Positions 11,040-46,712 of a DNA stretch of 64,000 nucleotides are shown here, one piece after another. The notes under the pieces were generated by a model. The model was given only the letters and a program-made list of their open reading frames with translations. It did not search any database and was not told where the DNA came from. Made by a program: the position numbers and the translations under genes. The stretch lies in assembly GCF_026210795.1 (NCBI RefSeq), contig NC_089443.1, forward strand, positions 4,774,001 through 4,838,000, read 5' to 3'. Origin of the DNA: Rhizophagus irregularis. Lineage: Eukaryota > Glomeromycota > Glomeromycetes > Glomerales > Glomeraceae. Numbering within the stretch: position 1 is the first letter of the stretch; each line of letters starts with the position of its first letter.

Positions 11040-12143
11040 TTCATTTGACCTGTGTCAGGTTAACTGAAGTTTTATTATTATATTGAATATTTCAAGTAAA
11101 AAATGTTTTGTAACATTTTTTTTATTAATTATACAAAAAATGTCAGGTTCGACGTTTTTAATTAAAAAAAAATGATTTTTTTTTAATTTTTATTGAAAAA
11201 AATGTCGGGTCTTAGTATTTTACTTTTTGCTTTATATAGTTTTGGCATTTTTTTTTATTTTACATGTAAAAATGCTGGAACCATTAGTTCTGGCAGTTTT
11301 CTTTTTAATTTTACATGTAAAAATGCTGAAACTATTAGTTTTAGCATTTTTTTTCGATTTTACATGTAAAAACGCTGGAATCATTAGTTCTGGCAGTTTT
11401 CTTTATAATTTTACATGTAAAAATGCCAAAACTATTAGTTTTGGCATTTTTTTTCGATTTTACATGTAAAAATGCTGGAATCATTAGTTCCAGTATTTTT
11501 CTTTTTGATTTTACATGTAAAAACGCCAAAACTGATAGTTTCATCAATTTTACATGTAAAAATGCCATTAGTTTCAGCATTTTTTTTTAATTTTACATGA
11601 AAAACGTTAGAATTATTAGTTCCAGCATTTTTCTTTTTGATTTTACATGTAAAAATACCAAAACTATTAGTTTCAGCATTTTTTTTCAATTTTACATGTA
11701 AAAATGTCAGAATCATTAGTCCTGGTGGTTTTCTTTTTAATTTTACATGTAAAAACGCTGAAACTATTAGTTTTAGCATTTTTTTTAATTTTACATGTAA
11801 AAACACTGGAATCATTAGTCCTGACGTTTTTCTTTCTAATTTTACATGTAAAAATGCTGAAACTATTAGTTTTGGCATTTTTTTTCGATTTTACATGTAA
11901 AAATGCCAGAATCATTAGTTTTGGCAGTTTTTCTTTTGATTTTATATACAAAAATGCCAGAACTATTAGTTTCAGCATTTTTTAATTTATTTGACCCAAA
12001 TATATGTCAGATCAACGGATCAGATCAGGTACTGACTAGCACTGACCTGACCCGTGTTAGGTCATGAATTTGATGACCTGACCTGAATATTTCAGGTTAA
12101 CCCATTAGGTTACCTGATCTGTCAGGTCAAGTTGCGGAGCTCT
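11040..12143. mobile_element. CTGACCTGA-ended element, left end unclear
   Basis: The right end reads CGGAGCTCT at 12135-12143, the exact reverse complement of the left end (AGAGCTCCG) of the element at 38524-39562. Inside the end lie many CTGACCTGA/TCAGGTCAG words. A hairpin block at 11095-11135 (TGTTTTGTAACATTTTTTTT) resembles one at 39220-39240, and a palindromic satellite fills the centre. I could not find the left inverted end or a target duplication, so the left limit is approximate. A further diverged end fragment (AAAGCTCT, 12285-12292) follows. Confidence 0.55.
11225..11985. repeat. Palindromic satellite, unit about 50 bp
   Basis: About 15 units of 49-51 bp alternate. Each is centred on TTTTACATGTAAAA, itself a palindrome, followed by an imperfect hairpin (AATGCTGAAAC...GTTTTAGCATT). 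Both DNA strands read as near-identical open frames rich in CKN and ISFGIFF words, a by-product of the symmetry rather than evidence of a gene. One unit (11512-11551) is shortened to 39 bp. Confidence 0.9.
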
Positions 12144-17949: not shown

Positions 17950-18629
17950 TAATTATAACACATGTATTGTTTATAGCTTAAATATAGTTTATTGTAATTA
18001 TTAAACTTACGCATAAAAAATAATTAAATTACAAATCATCAACATCATACAGCGGAGCACGATAATATATGTTAAAAATTCCATATATATGAGAAATGGG
18101 TTTTTACAGTTCTTTTACATTTAATAATTTAAGTTTTGCAAATGTAAATGTTTGTTCAACTTATTATTTAGTCAAGTGATTATTAATCAGATGATTTTTT
18201 GGTATTACAAAATAATTTTGAGTAACAAAAATTGTGAAAATCAATTAATAACTCTTTTTAATGCAGAGTAAACAAATCAGCCCATATGCATCATATTTTA
18301 GGTAGATTTGTACCAGACTACCAGTAAGTTACAAAATCTCAAATCGGCAAAATGCAAGAGAGTATTTAACCATAAATCCAATTAGTAGAAAATACCAATT
18401 ATAAACTTATAAGTTTTAGACATAAATTTATAATAAATTGAATAATTGACTATAAATTTGGTATTGATTTTTTCCGAATTTCTGAATTTTAATGACAAAT
18501 CATATTTTTCAAAAGTTAATTTTGATGACTTTTTTGTATCAATCAGCCATCAATCAAATATAATAATTTTTTGCCAAATTTTTATTGAATTTTTATTGAA
18601 TTGTCAATTTTACATAAATCTAAAGTATA
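17950..18629. other. AT-rich flank with repeat fragment
   Basis: No gene is seen. 18540-18625 (CAATCAGCCATCAATCAAAT onward) matches 23515-23600 on the far side of the next element, so that element inserted in a dispersed or tandem repeat. Confidence 0.6.
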
Positions 18630-18927
18630 TACAGTCAACTCCCTCTATAGTCACTCCCGTTATAGTCACATTCTACTATATAGTCACACCAGTTGAATGT
18701 TCAAAACACTTTATTATTAAAATCTATCCTATATAGTCACAATCTATCTATAGTCACTATCACACCTATCCTCAAAAATCTTATATTAAAAAGAACCGTT
18801 TATAATCACAGTTATATAAAGAATATATTAAATAACTTGGCATCTAATAATCGTACAAAGATGTATCATAGCTTGTTAGAATCGTCTCACTGAGGCGAAT
18901 CGAATGGTGGTAGTTTTATCCTTTTCC

Positions 18928-19322
18928 TTTGCAAGTGTTTACGGCCAGACCACCCATTGCCTCTTATGAGACTAATCTCGGGCTCGCGTCCTATCATCTT
19001 CAATGGGCAACCATTATACCGAGTACTTAATTCCTCAGGTAACAGCACCACTATAGAAGACATCCCCCATCGGGCCATTTTAGGCTGATCTGAAGCTAGG
19101 TACACGCCGCCTACTCATCCTATACCCATTGCATGATACCTGATACTCAATTTATTTAACGACCTTTAGAGAGCATCTACTTTCATGGAGGACTTTCGAC
19201 AGGTAACATCAACCATCTAGTACCCTTCCATACCACCATTTTAGGTACTAAGTCTCACTCAAAGGCCACTACAGCCCGCGATTACCTAGTACCGATAGTA
19301 CAGTTGTTTACCCCAAGTGGTA
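18928..19322 (-). mobile_element. 5'-truncated retroelement fragment A
   Basis: Read on the minus strand it ends CCGTAAACACTTGCAAA directly before the target word. It shares this 3' end and about 200 bases with fragment B but extends further upstream. Constant 3' end, variable 5' end and target duplication are the marks of target-primed (LINE-like) insertion. A short frame (MARWGMSSIVVLLPEEL) is shared with B and may be an ORF tail or chance. Confidence 0.75.
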
Positions 19323-19338
19323 AGTTTTATCCTTTTCC

Positions 19339-19546
19339 TTTGCAAGTGTTTACGGCCAGACCACCCATTGCCTCTTATGAGACTAATCTCGGGTCTGTGT
19401 CCTATCATCTTCAATGGGCAACCATTATACCGAGTACTTAATTCCTCAGGTAACAGCACCACTATAGAAGACATCCCCCATCGGGCCATTTTAGGCTGAT
19501 CTGAAGCTAGGTACACGCCGCCTACTCATCCTATACCCATTGCATG
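19339..19546 (-). mobile_element. 5'-truncated retroelement fragment B
   Basis: This segment is a nearly identical copy of the last 208 bases of fragment A, cut at CATGCAATGGG on its 5' side. It sits between two copies of the 16-bp target word. Confidence 0.78.
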
Positions 19547-19562
19547 AGTTTTATCCTTTTCC

Positions 19563-22500
19563 TGTGCAAACAGTCTTGTGACTTTATCTTTTATTTATAT
19601 TTTGAACTTCGAAAAATAATCGAACAATATTACAAAAATAAGAAAATAAACTAATAAAAAATAAAAAGAGTAGCTTCACGACTCATACAAGTAAAGAAAT
19701 CTAAACTAAAATAAAATTAAAGCAAAGAAAAACTGAACTATTACAGAATCGCATACCCCAACTTTACCCGAAGGCCAGTGTGAGTCAACTATCCAACATC
19801 CAAAAATCCAGTCCGTTACCAGAAAGAGATCCTAAGAGGTTGAACTGTTAAGCGGCGCAGAAAATCCAAGTGCGAAATCCAAGATCCACCCCGAATTATA
19901 GAAGAGGATATCCAAGAAATCCAGGAATCCTGAGAAACTGACGCCAAAGAAAAGTTGTGTTGTTGTGGAGAAGTAATATTAGGAAAAGAATTTGTAGATG
20001 GGCCACGTAATTTAGAAGCAGCCGAGATACCCTGCGACTCCTCCCAAGCATGGAAAAGAACATCACTAGCAAGCTAGTCGAATTAATCTTTAACCGAAGT
20101 TTTATGTGTAAATTCTGGCTGACATAAAATGTTGTAAAAATTTGTAATTCAATAAAGTAAATTCATCAATCGCTAAAGCGCTGTATATAAATTTCCGATA
20201 CAGAATGATAAAATTTGTATTCATAAAGAGAAGGGAAATAGGAAAACTTAAAATAAGCATAAAAGAAGTGAAAAAGGAAAGATGATTAAAAGAAAGTAAA
20301 AGAAAGTAATTAATTAAAAGGGAACTAGCGCAATTAGCGCATTAAGAAAGTAGGATGAACAAAATCAGCGGGTAAAACCCACTGTGATCGAAAATCAGAA
20401 GGAGCAGGGTAAGGATGTGAATCAAACCAAATTGCACAAACATCCAATAATGATAAGATATCACAAGGTTTAACACGATCTAGTTTGAAAGAAAACCGTG
20501 TATCACTGTTCCAAAATTGTGAAAATGTTGAAGAGGAGGCCGATTTGGTGATAACAGATTGGATGGCATCGCGAAGATACTTCTTTGATACCGAAGAAGT
20601 ATTGTGCTTGGAAATTAATAACCAGAGGAAATTGTGAGAAGGTACATAAATGGAAGCACTATTCGAGAGTATCCTTCGGACCATATCAATAATGGAACGA
20701 CTAAAGCCAAGAGTTTTGAAATCTTGATAATCAATAACAGGGCAGTTTGGACCAACAAAAGGACCAGAGGTGGGTTTGTTAGTAATAAAATGACTTGCAA
20801 CTACAGAAGAGGGATTCAAAATCACTTTTTGGATAGAACCCGTAAACTTAGAAGAAACGAACGCAACTGAAGATTGATGTGAACGTTCTTTCAAACAGAA
20901 GGAAACATCAGGACGCGAGGATACAAGATTACGTATATTCTGAACAATTGAGTAATCAGTAGTAGACATAGTCAAATTATAGGAGGTAGGAGGAATGACT
21001 ATAGCAGGATCCTTAGTAGCCATCCACATAGAAGAGTCAAGAAGATCGGGGTGAACAACATGTCGTGAAAATTTACTCCGGTCTGATAAAAGGTCTTTAT
21101 GGCGTACTTGACGGGCAAGTTGTTTCTTCGTAGGGTGGGAGATGGATTGGTGAGCAGAATATGAGATAAGAGTTCGTGCAGAAAGTGAACCATTGTCGTC
21201 CTCAAGAACATGGTGAAAAGCATAAGATTTGCGGTAGGAAATTCCTAGGCGTCGGGAAGTTACGTCTTTATAAAAACCATCAGCATGTCTTTTAGACACA
21301 CGGTTACAAGGTAAACTGAAAGGAGGGGAAGAAGGAGGGGGAGGAGTGTGAACAAGTTTTTTGTCATGAATATGACAAGCATGACGAAATTGAGACATAA
21401 CATAGGCAGCAGGAGTCTTGCAAAACGGACAACCAAAATAAAGGCCAAGGTAAAAGCAAGATTGATGATATCGAAATTGAATAAAAGTACGAGTACGTCT
21501 ATTATTACGATGAGAAGATGACCAACGAGCAAGAGAGGTAACACGTTGTGTTAATAAAAGCTGGCGTAATCTATTAAAATATTTACGTCGAGCATGAGAG
21601 GGAATACGGTTTTGTCGGTAAAAGAAAAAGGTTAAAAATTTTGATAAAATAAATTTTAAGTTAGGAGAAGGACGATCAGATGTAAATTGAAAGGGATCAG
21701 TAGTTGAAAGAAGAGGAGAATTGGTATGAATCGAATAACAATTATCCGAATCAGGAGTGGGGTCCAAAAGGAAGTAACAGTTGCCTCGTCGAATAGAATA
21801 TAAACGGTTAGAGCCAACATTTCGAGCAGGACGTATCCGTCCATCCAGGATGGTACGTATTGTGAAAGTGTAAGATGAACACTATGTGTGATCATGAGGG
21901 AAGGCTGAAACAGAAGTCGCAGGAAAAATTTCCGCAGGAATACTATTTAAAGAAAGGACCGGAGAAGCTAGAGGAGGAACGATATTGTCATAATCAGCGG
22001 TATCTACTAAGGCTGAAATTTGGGGAGTAATAAGAGAGGAATCCAGAAAATTATTTTGAAAAGAATTCTTAGGCTCGGAAGGACGTGGTAAAGGTGGAAC
22101 CAATAAACGTATTGTAGAAGGGGATAAAACCAAACGCGCAAAAGACAATTTAGTTTTAATTTTCTGTGCGCGCTTAAAGGATGCAGGGGAAATCATAGAG
22201 GATACGCGTTTACAAAGAAATTTAGGAGTATGCCGTGAAGGGCGTAAACGATTGGTGCATCGTGTAGAAGGGGTACATAAATCTAAGATGATATTAGGAT
22301 CAGCCTCGTGTTTAGAAGCCCAAATAGCTAATGGAAGAGGAGGTAGATCATCATTCATTGGATCATCATGTGATGGATGATTGTCAACAGGGGGGATAGC
22401 GAAATCCTTTTTTGAATCCGCAGTAGACGAAAGAGAGTCCAAGCGCAAGTGTAAAAGGCGTTTTTGTTCAGAAAGAGAGTCGTCTAGTAGGCGGAGGGGG

Positions 22501-22770
22501 CCAAAAGCGAGGTAAGCACGTGACTTGGCGGAAGAGTTGTCAGGAAGAGAGTTGTAACGAGCAAAAAGAGTTTCTTGTTTAAGGGCGCACTTAGCGCAAA
22601 GGTCCTCAACTTCGCGAAGTTTAGAAAGAACTTCATCCCAACTCAAAGTTGAGAAGTCATGAGAAGAGGCCATAGGCCAGAGGAAGGATAAAAATAAAAG
22701 AAAATTTAATAAAAAACTTTGAAAAAAATTATTTTATTTTTATGTAAAAATTGTCGTGAGGGCAACGGGA
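19563..22770 (-). mobile_element. 3.2-kb retroelement-like insert C with long ORF
   Basis: The insert is bounded exactly by the 16-bp target word. On the minus strand it has about 97 bases of leader, a 780-codon frame and a trailer of about 770 bases ending near a polyadenylation-type signal (AATAAA at about 19590) and GTTTGCACA. Base composition is clearly less AT-rich than the flanks. No reverse transcriptase motif was found. The trailer contains a coding-like patch (19815-20070; SWISSSIIRGGSWI), perhaps the remains of another ORF. It may be an internally deleted LINE or a non-autonomous passenger. Confidence 0.7.
20334..22673 (-). CDS. Unrecognised 780-codon ORF with one amber codon
   Basis: One frame runs from the ATG at 22673 to a TAA at 20334-20336 and is broken only by TAG at 21882-21884. 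The N-terminal 263 residues begin with a helical segment (WDEVLSKLREVEDLCAKCAL) and continue Ser/Pro-rich with conserved-looking basic stretches. After the amber codon comes a region rich in Arg and aromatics, then a Cys/His cluster (GCPFCKTPAAYVMSQFRHAC, then HIH) that could bind zinc as CxxC...H/C. The C-terminal 300 residues are mixed helix/strand with aromatic pairs (FLWLLIS, SQWVLPADFVHP). No RT, endonuclease, RNase H, integrase or transposase motif is seen. I do not know this protein; an ORF1-like nucleic-acid-binding protein is a guess. Confidence 0.6.
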
Positions 22771-22879
22771 AGTTTTATCCTTTTCCGATCACTGGCTGAC
22801 GAGTTATTCAACAAAATGTTAAACATCGGCATTATAATATTTCTTGATTTACGTTTACTGCGCCATTTAACATTTTGCT

Positions 22880-23290
22880 AGATTTCTCGGTATCTAGTAA
22901 TTGTAAAAAGACGATTTATAGCTCGTTGGAATCGCCTCATCGAGACGAATCGAATGGTGGTAAGCTCATCTCTCTGTGATCAATATTGACGGAGTTATTA
23001 CTTAAAAACCATTTAATATTTTTTAATTTCGGAAATTGATCTAGTGATTGGATTTCGGTGTATCTTATACCATTAGATTCGTCTCATCAAGACGAATCGA
23101 ATGGTAGTAAGATCGTCTTTCTAGGATCAATATTGGCAGAGTTATTACACAAAAACCATTAATATTTTTTTAATTTCGGAAATTAATCTAGTGATTGGAT
23201 TTCGACGTATTTTATACCATTAGAACCGTCTCATCAAGACGAATCGAATGGCGGTAAGATCATCTCTCTACGATTAATATTGGCGAAGTT
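22880..23290. repeat. 147-bp tandem repeat
   Basis: CGAATGGTGG or close variants occur at 22951, 23098 and 23245, always preceded by the inverted pair GATTCGTCTCATCAAGACGAATC. A diverged unit at 18870-18911 contains the retroelement target. A related word (AAGACGAATCTAATGGTAGT) sits in the foldback at 42612-42992. Confidence 0.85.
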
Positions 23291-23453
23291 ACGATACAAT
23301 AAAGTTTTAAGTATAATTCTGGCTAAAATTATGTTAATTTTTGGCCGGAATTATGATATACAAATATAAGAAATTTTTTATATAGTCACATCTCTTTATA
23401 ATCACCAAATATGGACTGTCCCAAATGTGTGACTATAAAGAGAGTTGACTGTA

Positions 23454-38523: not shown

Positions 38524-39562
38524 AGAGCTCCGAACAGGTCAGCCAAATTCAGGTAACCTGACCTGACCTGACCTGAAATTCAGGTCAGGTATGAGATTTT
38601 TGAAAAAAATTCAGGTCAGGTATGAAGATTGACCTGACCTGATTGACCTGTTGACCTGAAACTATTGATTCTACTATATAATAAAAGTGAGTTGCAGTAT
38701 TGCGATTCACTTTTTTATATTGATTTTATATAATAAAAGTGAGTTGCGGTATTGCGATTCACTTTTTTATATTGATTTTATATAATAAAAGTGAGTTGCG
38801 GTATTGCGATTCACTTTTTTATATTGATTTTATATAATAAAAGTGAGTTGCGATATTGCGATTCACTTTTTTATATTGATTTTATATAATAAAAGTGAGT
38901 TGCGATATTGCGATTCACTTTTTTATATTGATTTTATATAATAAAAGTGAGTTGCGATATTGCGATTCACTTTTTTATATTGATTTTATATAATAAAAGT
39001 GAGTTGCGATATCGCAACTCACTTTTTTTATATTAATTTTATATAAAAAAAGTGAATTGCGATATCGCAACTCACTTTTTTTATATTAATTTTATATAAA
39101 AAAAGTGAATTGCAGTATTGGAATTCACTTTTTTATATGATTTTAATATAAAAATGTTGAATCGCAATATTTCAAGAAAAAACGTTGCGAAAACATTTTT
39201 TTCATAATATTATATTAAAAAAATGTTTCGTAACATTTTTTTTTTTGATATTTCAATAATAACGTTGTGAAAACATTTTTTTCATAATGTTATATTAAAA
39301 AAAACATTTTGCAATATTTTTTTTCAATATTTTAATAAAAAACGTTGCAAAAATGTTTTTTTTCATAATATTATATTAAAAAAAAAAGTTTTGTACCATT
39401 TTTTTTCAATACTTTAATAAAAATAGTCCTGAAATTTTTCAGGTTTCAGGTCAGGTCAGGTCAAACAGACAACCTGATATAACCTGACCTGACCTGACCT
39501 GAAAAAAATTTCAGGTCAGGTTTATCAATTAACCTGACCTGACCTGACCTATTCGGAACTCT
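38524..39562. mobile_element. MULE-like non-autonomous element, 1039 bp
   Basis: The ends are AGAGCTCCGAACAGGTCA and the inverted TATTCGGAACTCT. AGATGGGCAT is duplicated exactly at 38514-38523 and 39563-39572. A 10-bp duplication suggests Mutator-like mobilisation. Inside the ends lie CCTGACCTGACCTGA arrays in both orientations, then a 52-bp hairpin satellite, then 90-bp hairpin units (39130-39420). It has no gene and interrupts the transposase codons between KARDGH and FTNSIHF. Confidence 0.9.
38670..39125. repeat. 52-bp hairpin tandem repeat
   Basis: About nine units keep AAAAGTGAGTTGCG and CACTTTTTTATATTGATT at 52-bp spacing. In the unit at about 38995 the two arms are a perfect 32-base palindrome centred on GATATC. 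The others have a looser second arm (TTGCGATTCAC). Confidence 0.92.
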
Positions 39563-42027: not shown

Positions 42028-42333
42028 CAGTTAAGTCTTTTTATAGTTACACATTTGGGATAGTCTATATAATTGTAAAAGGATAAAACTATTACCATAC
42101 ATTCTTGTATGATTATTAGATGCCAAATTATTTAATATATTCTTTGTATAACTGTGATTATAATAAATGGTTTTTTTAATATAAGATTTTTGAGGATAGA
42201 TGTGATAGTGACTATAGATAGATTGTAATTATATAAGATAGATTTTAATGATAAAGTGTTTTGAACATTTAACTAGTGTGACTATATAGTAGAATGTAAC
42301 TATAATGGGAGTGACTATAGAGGGAGTTAACTG
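42028..42333. mobile_element. 306-bp MITE of the CAGTCAACTC family
   Basis: Ends CAGTTAAGTC and GGGAGTTAACTG are flanked by TA. In reverse orientation it matches the first 280 bases and the last 40 bases of the element at 18632-23451, and it holds the unoccupied retroelement target at 42075-42090. Confidence 0.88.
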
Positions 42334-43966: not shown

Positions 43967-46622
43967 GTAATAATAATACAAAATCTAATAACTAGGAAAC
44001 CGCCAGAATTGGTAAGTCGGAGGCGTGATCATAATAAATAACAAATATCTAGAATGGTAGCGATTTTCTACTAATTAGCAGCATAACGCCTGTAATTTTC
44101 TGCTGATTAGCAGCATAACGCCTTGGAATTCCGGGACACGTGATCGATCAATTTTCATAGTTCCGGACAATATGAAAAAAAAGTCAAATAATAAAAATAA
44201 ATTAAGGATCGCCTAATTTTTGAACTAAAAAAACAGAAATTTGTAATATTATACCATATTTAATGAGATTTGCCGATCATGAGTGATTTTCTTTTAGAAG
44301 GTTTACTTAAAGAAATTTATGTATTTAGCATTATCCAACCGTTTGTTTTTTAATACAGAACTTTTTTTTGCGCTTTGAATTAGCTAAATATTCTTACTTT
44401 GCTATAATTATAACGCCAAAATCTATACTCACAAGTTCTAATAGCATAACTCGATTCGCTATCTCTATTTATAACAGAAAAACTATTAGTATTGTAATAT
44501 TAACAATGAATAATTAACGTAATTATAATCAAATATTATTTATTATCAAAATTGTAAGGTATTTCAGTTTAAAACCTTTTTAAGATATGTCCGTTCATTT
44601 TCAATTACCAACACGACAAGATAATGAAATAGTGTTTCAATCCAAAACAATGAAATAGGTTTGAAGAAAAGGTACTGTATATATCATTTAGTAACGAGCT
44701 ACAAGAGTGTAGGCGAATTGTTATATAGATGTTATATCCATTTTTATATATATATCCACAGGAAGATAGATCAATTTTTAATCTTTTACTGCTATCACGA
44801 AAAGGTAATGACGCGAAGCTACCATTTGCTGAATAATGCAGAACATCTCTAAGTCAGAATCCTTGCTATAATGTGATTATCTGATTTATTACTTAGATAT
44901 ATAAAAATAGAGCTTTTGCTATCAATTCTAAACGTTATCACCTATCCCAAATTAAGCTTTGTTATTAAATTGACGAAAGTATGATGAAATACATAATGGG
45001 GACGACATATAATGGATCAATGATGAATATTTATGTTGTGTATTTACATGTAAGTTAAATTTTTATTTAATATTTAACGGATTATTATACAGAATTCCTT
45101 ACGTCAGTAGTAATTGCACTAGTTGAACAAATTACACCTTAAATTTATTATCACAGCTTGAACTACAACCTCTATCATTTGGATCAGATAGTCAATTACA
45201 GTAACAAATACGATGTTTAAACATATATTTTTATGCCAAACCTATGGACAAATTGGTTCAGTAGTACGTGTTCAGGAAAGAGTTAACTTCCTTGCGTTCA
45301 GAGTTAGAAAAAAAAAATTGCAAACCAAGAGGTTTGTACTTCAGAAATACAGTGAGAAGAAAATTGGATTTCAAAAAAAAGAAAAGGACATGTAGATTCC
45401 GATGCAGATTTGAATGAATAAAAGTCAAGTGACTTTTTAGGCGACTTGGAAAGATGATGATATTATAACGAAGCTTGGAAGATTAGAACTAGAAAACGTG
45501 TTAGAATCAAGAAATTATATAGGTGTCAAAACAGTAAGAGCTGAAATTAACCTTATAAAAGAATAGGAAAAAGTTTGAATGATGGTTCTGGGGAACATTT
45601 GGAATAGAAGAGATTCTACGCTAAAGGAACGTAAAATCGGAATCAATGGCAACTAATAAGAGATATGGATGGAAGTGTAGATATATTGAGCTATCGGGAA
45701 AATTTTTGTGTAATAATGCAAAAAAAATATTCAGATTTTGACTTAAAACGAACTTGCATAAATGATTAACGATTACGAAAAAAATTATCCAGATCTTGCT
45801 CAAAATGAAAACTGATTGCCCCGGTTTTTGGCTTAATTTTCGTTAGGTCAAGATGGAACAGAATGTAGTAATTCGGTTGTTTCTTCTGTTCCATTTTGTG
45901 ACTAGGGTCACGATGACTTTTTTAGAGAAATGAAGTATGATTTAAAAATAATTTGTAATTAAATAGGCTATTTATATTATTCCTTATATTTCCTTTCGAA
46001 AACTTATTGAATAATAAAAAGGAAAATTGTAAAACAAGGAGAATTTAAAGATAAAAAAATAAAAAATTTATAAACAAAAGTAAAAAATTTTTACTGGTTT
46101 GTTTTGCTGATCACAGTGATATGCACAAATTTATTTTTATAGACTGTCTATTTATGAGAAAATTTTTAATTGCCATGATTAATTTTCACATCATAACTTC
46201 ATAGGTCAAATGTAATTGATATTCAGAATTTTAGAATTTTAGAAACATCATTATTACAGTATTTTTTGAGCATAAAATTTATAACATTATTAAGTTGCTA
46301 TGTATATTTTTAAAAGTATGTCATTAATCAGATTTAAAAGATTTATAATGGATGCACTAATAAAATAAAAAGAAATTTTAATTTGCTGATTTTGTTATGA
46401 TAATAATTATTATTTTTTTATAGTAGTTGAATTCTTTTTCTTTTGTAAAAAAATAATTAAAAATTATGACTACAAATCATATAATGGTACTACAAACAAT
46501 AATTTCTATAAAAAAGGAAATTTCTTTATGATCGCAGAATTTAGAATTTTCGCTATCTTGATTATATAACGATAAAATTAAATGCATATGTAAAAATTAT
46601 TTTAAAGTTTAATAAGAAATTT
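43967..46622. other. Gene-poor region before the tRNA
   Basis: A 32-bp direct duplication (GATTAGCAGCATAACGCC) lies at 44064-44123. 45200-45840 has somewhat lower AT content and short frames that do not join into a recognisable gene. Confidence 0.45.
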
Positions 46623-46694
46623 GGGGGGTTGGCGCAATGGTAGCGCGTCCGCCTCCAGAGCGGAAGGTTGGGTGTTCGAGTCACTCACTCCCCA
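46623..46694 (+). tRNA. tRNA-Trp (anticodon CCA)
   Basis: The cloverleaf is complete: acceptor GGGGGGT with ACTCCCC, D-stem GCGC/GCGC, anticodon stem TCCGC/GCGGA with loop CTCCAGA (anticodon CCA), T-stem GGGTG/CACTC with loop TTCGAGT, and discriminator A. There is no intron. The acceptor stem has one G-U pair and the T-stem one G-T (G-U) pair. Confidence 0.95.
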
Positions 46695-46712
46695 TTTAAA
46701 TCAATTAATTTA

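Follow-up and report, generated by a model that had tools for sequence, protein, structure and literature searches.

Stacked retroelement insertions at a fixed 16-bp site within a terminal-inverted-repeat transposon of Rhizophagus irregularis

Tx1L and Tx2L of Xenopus, which belong to the Tx1 clade, are long interspersed nuclear elements (LINEs) with an apurinic/apyrimidinic (AP) endonuclease, and they occupy a fixed site inside a DNA transposon, Tx1D or Tx2D. Work by Christensen et al. (2000, 2001) reportedly deals with these elements. The Tx1 clade is not known to carry an RNase H domain. Among other LINEs with AP endonucleases, R1 targets 28S ribosomal DNA (rDNA) and SART/TRAS targets the telomere; HAL1-type half-LINEs have LINE ends and a reading frame of their own and are devoid of reverse transcriptase. 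Here, we describe a locus in a stretch of 64,000 nucleotides from the fungus Rhizophagus irregularis (NC_089443.1, positions 4,774,001 to 4,838,000; hereafter the window). Based on sequence comparisons, we read positions 18912-22786 of the window as the product of three target-primed insertions, one after another, at a single fixed site of 16 bp (word A) in a terminal-inverted-repeat (TIR) transposon. The likely source of the enzyme is a LINE that we call LINE-A, which would have moved a short interspersed element (SINE-A) and a composite element (w3); a second LINE and SINE (LINE-B and SINE-B) would act likewise at a second site, word B. We put the probability of this reading at roughly 90%.

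As usually described, Tx1L resembles LINE-A in combining an AP endonuclease with a fixed site within a DNA transposon. However, the present system is found in a fungus, has two LINE lineages at two sites in one transposon, includes SINEs and a coding passenger, and has RNase H. Target-specific elements with AP endonucleases are assigned to the Tx1 and R1 clades in PMC4640811. The R1 clade (28S rDNA) and SART/TRAS share with LINE-A an AP endonuclease and a fixed target, but the target here is a transposon rather than rDNA or telomere. Utopia, which inserts in U2 small nuclear RNA genes, occasionally forms tandem insertions at one site, as seen here, but has a restriction-like endonuclease and a gene as its target (PMC4640811). 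FoTeR of Fusarium oxysporum is likewise a fungal site-specific element without long terminal repeats (non-LTR), but it lies at chromosome ends and telomeres, as summarized in PMC12857005. Short statements elsewhere list 'other TEs' (transposable elements) among non-LTR targets (PMC8869645) and describe the Tx group as target-specific (PMC3747384). For R. irregularis, new SINE, LINE/L1-Tx1 and L1-R1 families are reported in PMC11075540, the main text of which contains 0 occurrences of 'target site' and 'site-specific'. Among the papers listed in our literature searches, mostly at the level of titles and abstract openings, we found no account of such a system in R. irregularis.

Word A, AGTTTTATCCTTTTCC, occurs exactly at 18912, 19323, 19547 and 22771. 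When up to two mismatches are allowed, the window holds six matches against 0.22 expected; the maximum in 100 shuffles was two, and none reached six. The four exact copies enclose three inserts:

18912..18927, plus strand: target word A, copy 1 (pattern search)
18928..19322, minus strand: SINE-A copy of 395 bp, 5'-truncated, 3' end at 18928 (alignment)
19323..19338, plus strand: target word A, copy 2 (pattern search)
19339..19546, minus strand: SINE-A copy of 208 bp, 5'-truncated, 3' end at 19339 (alignment)
19547..19562, plus strand: target word A, copy 3 (pattern search)
19563..22770, minus strand: w3, a 3208-bp composite with a LINE-like 5' end, its own reading frame and a LINE-A 3' end
22771..22786, plus strand: target word A, copy 4, followed by the host flank GATCACTGGCTGACGAG (pattern search)

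An earlier sequence-only reading of this DNA had proposed these insert boundaries and word positions, and both are borne out. It had also noticed that the two short inserts have one end in common and differ at the other, and 225 nt of them, including the word, are indeed 98% identical. Its description of three retroelement insertions is corrected here: two are SINE copies and one is a composite element. The 3' end of the third insert is unlike that of the short ones and corresponds over 501 nt to LINE copies.

The transposon that carries the stack (the host) is 961 bp long once 3859 inserted bases are removed. Its ends are CAGTCAACTCCCTCTATAGTCAC and, inverted, CAGTCAACTCTCTTTATAGTCAC, with the pattern CAGTCAACTC(C/T)CT(C/T)TATAGTCAC, and TA flanks it on both sides (18630-18631 and 23452-23453). 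Host ends visible at other loci also lie beside TA, and their outer flanks differ. With terminal inverted repeats, a TA duplication and no long frame (the longest stop-free stretch is 69 codons), the host has the characteristics of a miniature inverted-repeat transposable element (MITE), which we take to be Tc1/mariner-like. Word A occupies host positions 281-296 and word B positions 909-924, 37 bp from the right end. The features of the host and its relative in the window are as follows:

18632..23451, no strand assigned: host TIR transposon, with TIRs and TA, and copies at other loci
22929..23291, plus strand: 147-bp tandem repeats within the host
23399..23414, minus strand: target word B (CCATATTTGGTGATTA), present here as an exact copy with nothing inserted
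42028..42333, no strand assigned: short MITE relative of the host (extent as given in the sequence-only reading), with word A at 42075-42090 unoccupied

The unoccupied word in the relative, which had been pointed out before, is on the minus strand and has one mismatch. In the whole genome that contains the window (G000; 146,748,485 bases in 32 contigs), a 36-mer across the empty A site gave 225 matches and a 33-mer running from word A into the right flank gave 406, each with up to 3 mismatches. By this comparison, as many as 181 of the 406 junctions on the right-hand side do not count as empty.

Word A itself has 467 exact copies in the genome. Counts of tails and junctions allowed up to three mismatches and used patterns of different length, and should not be read as strict fractions: the LINE-type tail had 330 matches, the SINE-A tail 268, word A joined to the SINE-A tail 236, word B joined to the LINE-B tail 130, and word B joined to the SINE-B tail 75. 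Reversed controls gave 0 throughout. Word B joined to a SINE-A-like tail also gave 0, although the LINE-B-like first letters of that pattern already cost two of the three mismatches.

We then chose ends by their tails alone, taking for each type 20 exact-tail matches, the first per contig not already fetched (contig C25 was skipped for the LINE list). All 20 SINE-A ends adjoin word A, where up to two mismatches and an offset of no more than one base were accepted; at one locus (L042), the word has a one-base deletion that the script missed and was judged by eye. LINE-A-type ends (TGTGCAAACAG, common to LINE-A and w3) adjoin word A in 19 of 20 cases (at most two mismatches and two bases of offset). 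Twenty more ends had tails with one mismatch: all 15 of the TGAGCAAACAG type among 100 listed of 330, plus five picked by hand from the other 20. The 15 ends with TGAGCAAACAG, which belong to LINE-B, are all at word B, with six intervening bases at L074. Four of the other five adjoin word A within three mismatches. These samples and the genome counts support the earlier proposal of a site-specific non-LTR element aimed at a word inside a MITE, and the suggested tabulation of sequences flanking the shared 3' ends did reveal enrichment of that word. The system is larger than had been envisaged, with two targets, two LINE lineages and a likely enzyme source that is a LINE outside the window.

Insertion at any AT-rich or open site, with the word merely being common, would fit the low GC content of the window (0.28). 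We consider this extremely improbable, because a search of the 146.7 Mb with the reversed word gave 0 matches and because, at all 60 sampled ends, the outer flank is either host or a further element of the stack. BLAST assigned 55 of these flanks and the other five were judged by eye: L041, L050 and L054 are LINE or w3 5' ends, and L047 and L061 are host. A possible bias in stacking order (LINE-type tail beside a SINE in 7 of 20, SINE-A tail beside a LINE in 1 of 20, by eye) was too small to use.

In 31 stretches that hold at least two recognised words, neighbouring words are the same in 40 of 46 pairs. For pairs that include a variant word, identity across the insert was found in 7 of 13, as compared with 8 of 1369 between loci; the L002 word at 2134, which has three mismatches, is possibly a chance match. 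Since locus-specific variants of the word turn up on either side of an insert, the word is a target-site duplication, and the earlier claim that the target is regenerated in this way gains support. The sequence-only reading had itself named, as a refutation, the case in which the word belongs to the 3' tail of the element; the targeting would then be an artefact of where the elements were cut off. In agreement with that, all 50 of the similarity matches listed (40 of 471 candidates scored) start at the first or second base of the word. However, 225 element-free host sites bear the word (up to 3 mismatches over 36 bases), it also follows 5' ends at many truncation points, its locus-private variants agree in the 7 pairs just mentioned, and LINE-B and one w3 copy (L106), the tails of which are near-identical, follow other words. 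We give an own-tail origin almost no credence.

The stack and its spread could also have arisen from a single insertion, through unequal crossing-over or transposition of a loaded TIR transposon. Repeated words would favor recombination, a loaded transposon might still move, and some copies may well have been produced in one of these ways. As an account of the whole, this is quite improbable. The window inserts differ in kind and truncation (SINEs of 395 and 208 bp and a w3 of 3208 bp), as do the lengths in the stack at L008 (365, 179, 306, 303 and 989 bp); visible host ends lie beside TA in differing outer flanks; and identical stacks with identical truncation points were not seen in the fetched loci.

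LINE-A was located through genomic copies of word A about 7.85 kb apart. Four copies of this 7.84-kb element were fetched, with 7834-7843 bp between words, and none is in the window. In L021, its second open reading frame (ORF2) runs uninterrupted over 1821 aa and matches Exo_endo_phos (6.7e-09), RVT_1 (1.2e-16) and RNase_H (9e-08), and ORF1 pieces of L022 and L024 match RRM_1. Based on the presence of reverse transcriptase and an AP-type endonuclease in one ORF, LINE-A is an AP-endonuclease non-LTR retrotransposon. An R2-type assignment was rejected because an AP endonuclease is present instead, although no dedicated model of the restriction-like domain was run; the protein's PDB matches are mainly L1 ORF2p and R2. 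A genome search with ORF2 gave at least 30 matches that were 85-100% identical (26 of 1933 candidates scored). The ratio of nonsynonymous to synonymous substitution rates (dN/dS) in ORF2 is 0.12-0.13 for three copies against L021, versus 1.6-1.9 in the one shifted frame tried. 5' truncations occur mainly in SINE-A copies and in the LINE-tail copies L002 and L020. At the 5' ends of LINE-A in L021-L024, extra AAAACT-like letters that differ among copies stand at the junction with the duplicated word, as if second-strand synthesis had slipped. A small hairpin, AGUC-AUAA-GACU, is predicted near the 3' ends of both LINE-A and LINE-B.

Three LINE-B copies of 7996-8000 bp, chosen by tails about 8.0 kb apart, were fetched. 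In aligned stretches of more than 100 aa, their ORF2 is 46-70% identical to that of LINE-A (67-70% in stretches starting near the N-terminus and 46-58% in the rest). ORF1 is 42-44% identical, and the 3' region is 81-83% identical in nucleotides. In L085, endonuclease, RNase H and RRM matches lie in broken or separate frames. L085, L086 and L087 are head-to-tail stacks in which another LINE-B tail is present on the far side of word B from the 5' end of the copy, and 13-14 letters are constant between inserts at word B. By these comparisons, LINE-B is a sister lineage of LINE-A that uses a second site in the same transposon.

Both short inserts in the window are 5'-truncated copies of SINE-A, a SINE-like element of about 980 bp whose longest copies span 968-990 bp between words. 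In L002, the one copy translated, none of the six frames is free of stops. A box-B-like GGTTCGATTCC is found at nt 71-75 in five of five copies scanned, and a second one at nt 469-473 is exact in four of the five; the scan for an A box gave many matches. A tRNA origin is not supported, because ARAGORN detected 0 tRNAs in five SINE loci. Rfam yielded a single sub-threshold match (E 0.75) in window positions 18400-23400, and none at E 0.1 in six loci. Four SINE-B copies are 84-90% identical to SINE-A up to nt 736 (802 in one), beyond which the tails do not align. Targets sort by tail, with SINE-A at word A and SINE-B at word B. Since similar bodies carry different tails that are sorted by target, it is likely that the SINE tails were exchanged and that the target changed with them. 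Small hairpins are predicted near the 3' ends of SINE-A and SINE-B (GUAA-ACAC-UUGC and UUACAA-AACAC-UUGUAA).

The third insert, w3, is made up of the following parts:

22691..22770, minus strand: 5' 80 nt of w3, 81-86% like LINE 5' ends
20334..22673, minus strand: 776-aa frame of w3, with one in-frame stop in this copy (ORFs of 263 and 477 aa)
19563..20063, minus strand: LINE-A 3' end of 501 nt, overlapping a segment that resembles the final 85 codons of LINE-A ORF2

The final 501 nt are 94-98% like LINE-A. BLASTN of the region between the LINE-like ends against LINE copies found nothing except the C-terminal ORF2 codons that open the LINE part, and no reverse transcriptase match was found in w3. 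At least 43 matches were obtained in the genome (40 of 58 candidates scored), of which 16, including the window copy, are near full length and 90-100% identical. A protein starting MASSHD, which is 776 aa long in L105, is contained in the open frames of L105 (826 codons) and L107 (813 codons). For 11 copies against L105 in a nucleotide alignment, dN/dS is 0.19-0.53 in this frame and 0.77-1.40 in two shifted frames; all of these comparisons share L105. They replace earlier estimates in which codons came from tblastn pieces overlapping at frameshifts and four diverged copies (0.29-0.42) were included. The protein matched no family above cut-off in Pfam or NCBIfam, no PDB entry by single sequence (by profile, one chance-level match to ribosomal L27, E 0.27), and no relative in viral contigs. 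Like HAL1-type half-LINEs, w3 has LINE ends and its own frame and is without reverse transcriptase, but its frame has no detectable relation to LINE ORF1 (tblastn and profile comparison). Our guess is that the protein acts for its own RNA, for example as an RNA-binding stand-in for ORF1.

The site, its duplications, the truncations, the two lineages and the sorting by target can be read from the DNA. We infer where the nick falls, how the steps follow one another, that elements are moved in trans and that ORF2 determines the specificity. In the proposed mechanism, the LINE-A ORF2 protein would nick the strand 5'-AGTTTTATCCTTTTCC^GATC, and the freed end would prime reverse transcription; the other strand would then be cut 16 bp away. 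Each insertion would thus duplicate the site and leave a new target, which is why repeated insertions would pile up. LINE-A would move SINE-A (about 980 bp) and w3 (3.2 kb) in trans, and LINE-B, partnered by SINE-B, would act likewise at word B (positions 909-924 of the host).

Several observations weigh against this reading. The SINE-A 3' end has no BLAST match to the LINE-A or LINE-B tails, and the link between SINE-A and LINE-A is a common target and duplication, not a common tail. The only BLAST match between SINE and LINE tails is an insert of about 30 nt of LINE-B beside the SINE-B of L088. Six of the 13 variant word pairs differ across the insert, which later mutation could explain. Among the 20 LINE-A-type ends, the one at L061 borders a word that is shortened and accompanied by extra bases. 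The insertion at L080, which is the w3 copy L106 (G000:C3:402950-406330), is off the exact word A. It lies elsewhere in the same host transposon and in the opposite orientation, flanked on either side by GTAAAAAGACGATTA, a duplication of about 15 bp that resembles GGAAAAGGATAAAACT, which is word A in the element's sense; this near-cognate site with a duplication of its own counts in favor of the reading. Finally, samples drawn from exact and one-mismatch tails over-represent young copies (tails with two or three mismatches were counted but not sampled), and there may be further targets besides words A and B.

Elsewhere in the window, ARAGORN predicts a tRNA-Trp at 46622-46695. At positions 38675-39151, a 52-bp unit containing an inverted repeat recurs about nine times (95% matches), and positions 11237-11983 hold about 15 copies of a unit of about 51 bp with the palindrome TTTTACATGTAAAA.

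We lean toward a broader view in which the MITE family serves a community of retroelements, built up in layers, as a shared landing strip. The two LINE lineages would have divided their specificity between two sites, SINEs with one body and exchanged tails would follow the matching LINE, and a rider with LINE ends and no reverse transcriptase would carry a selected 776-aa protein, making it a protein-coding parasite of LINEs. Two sister LINEs with differing targets and many scorable insertions offer a natural comparison for what determines LINE target choice, and SINEs with similar bodies but different tails and targets offer a test of how a tail selects its partner. A rider without reverse transcriptase but with a selected frame, if true, would constitute a new kind of LINE parasite. 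Short targets within harmless repeats are also relevant to the design of safe-harbour insertion tools.

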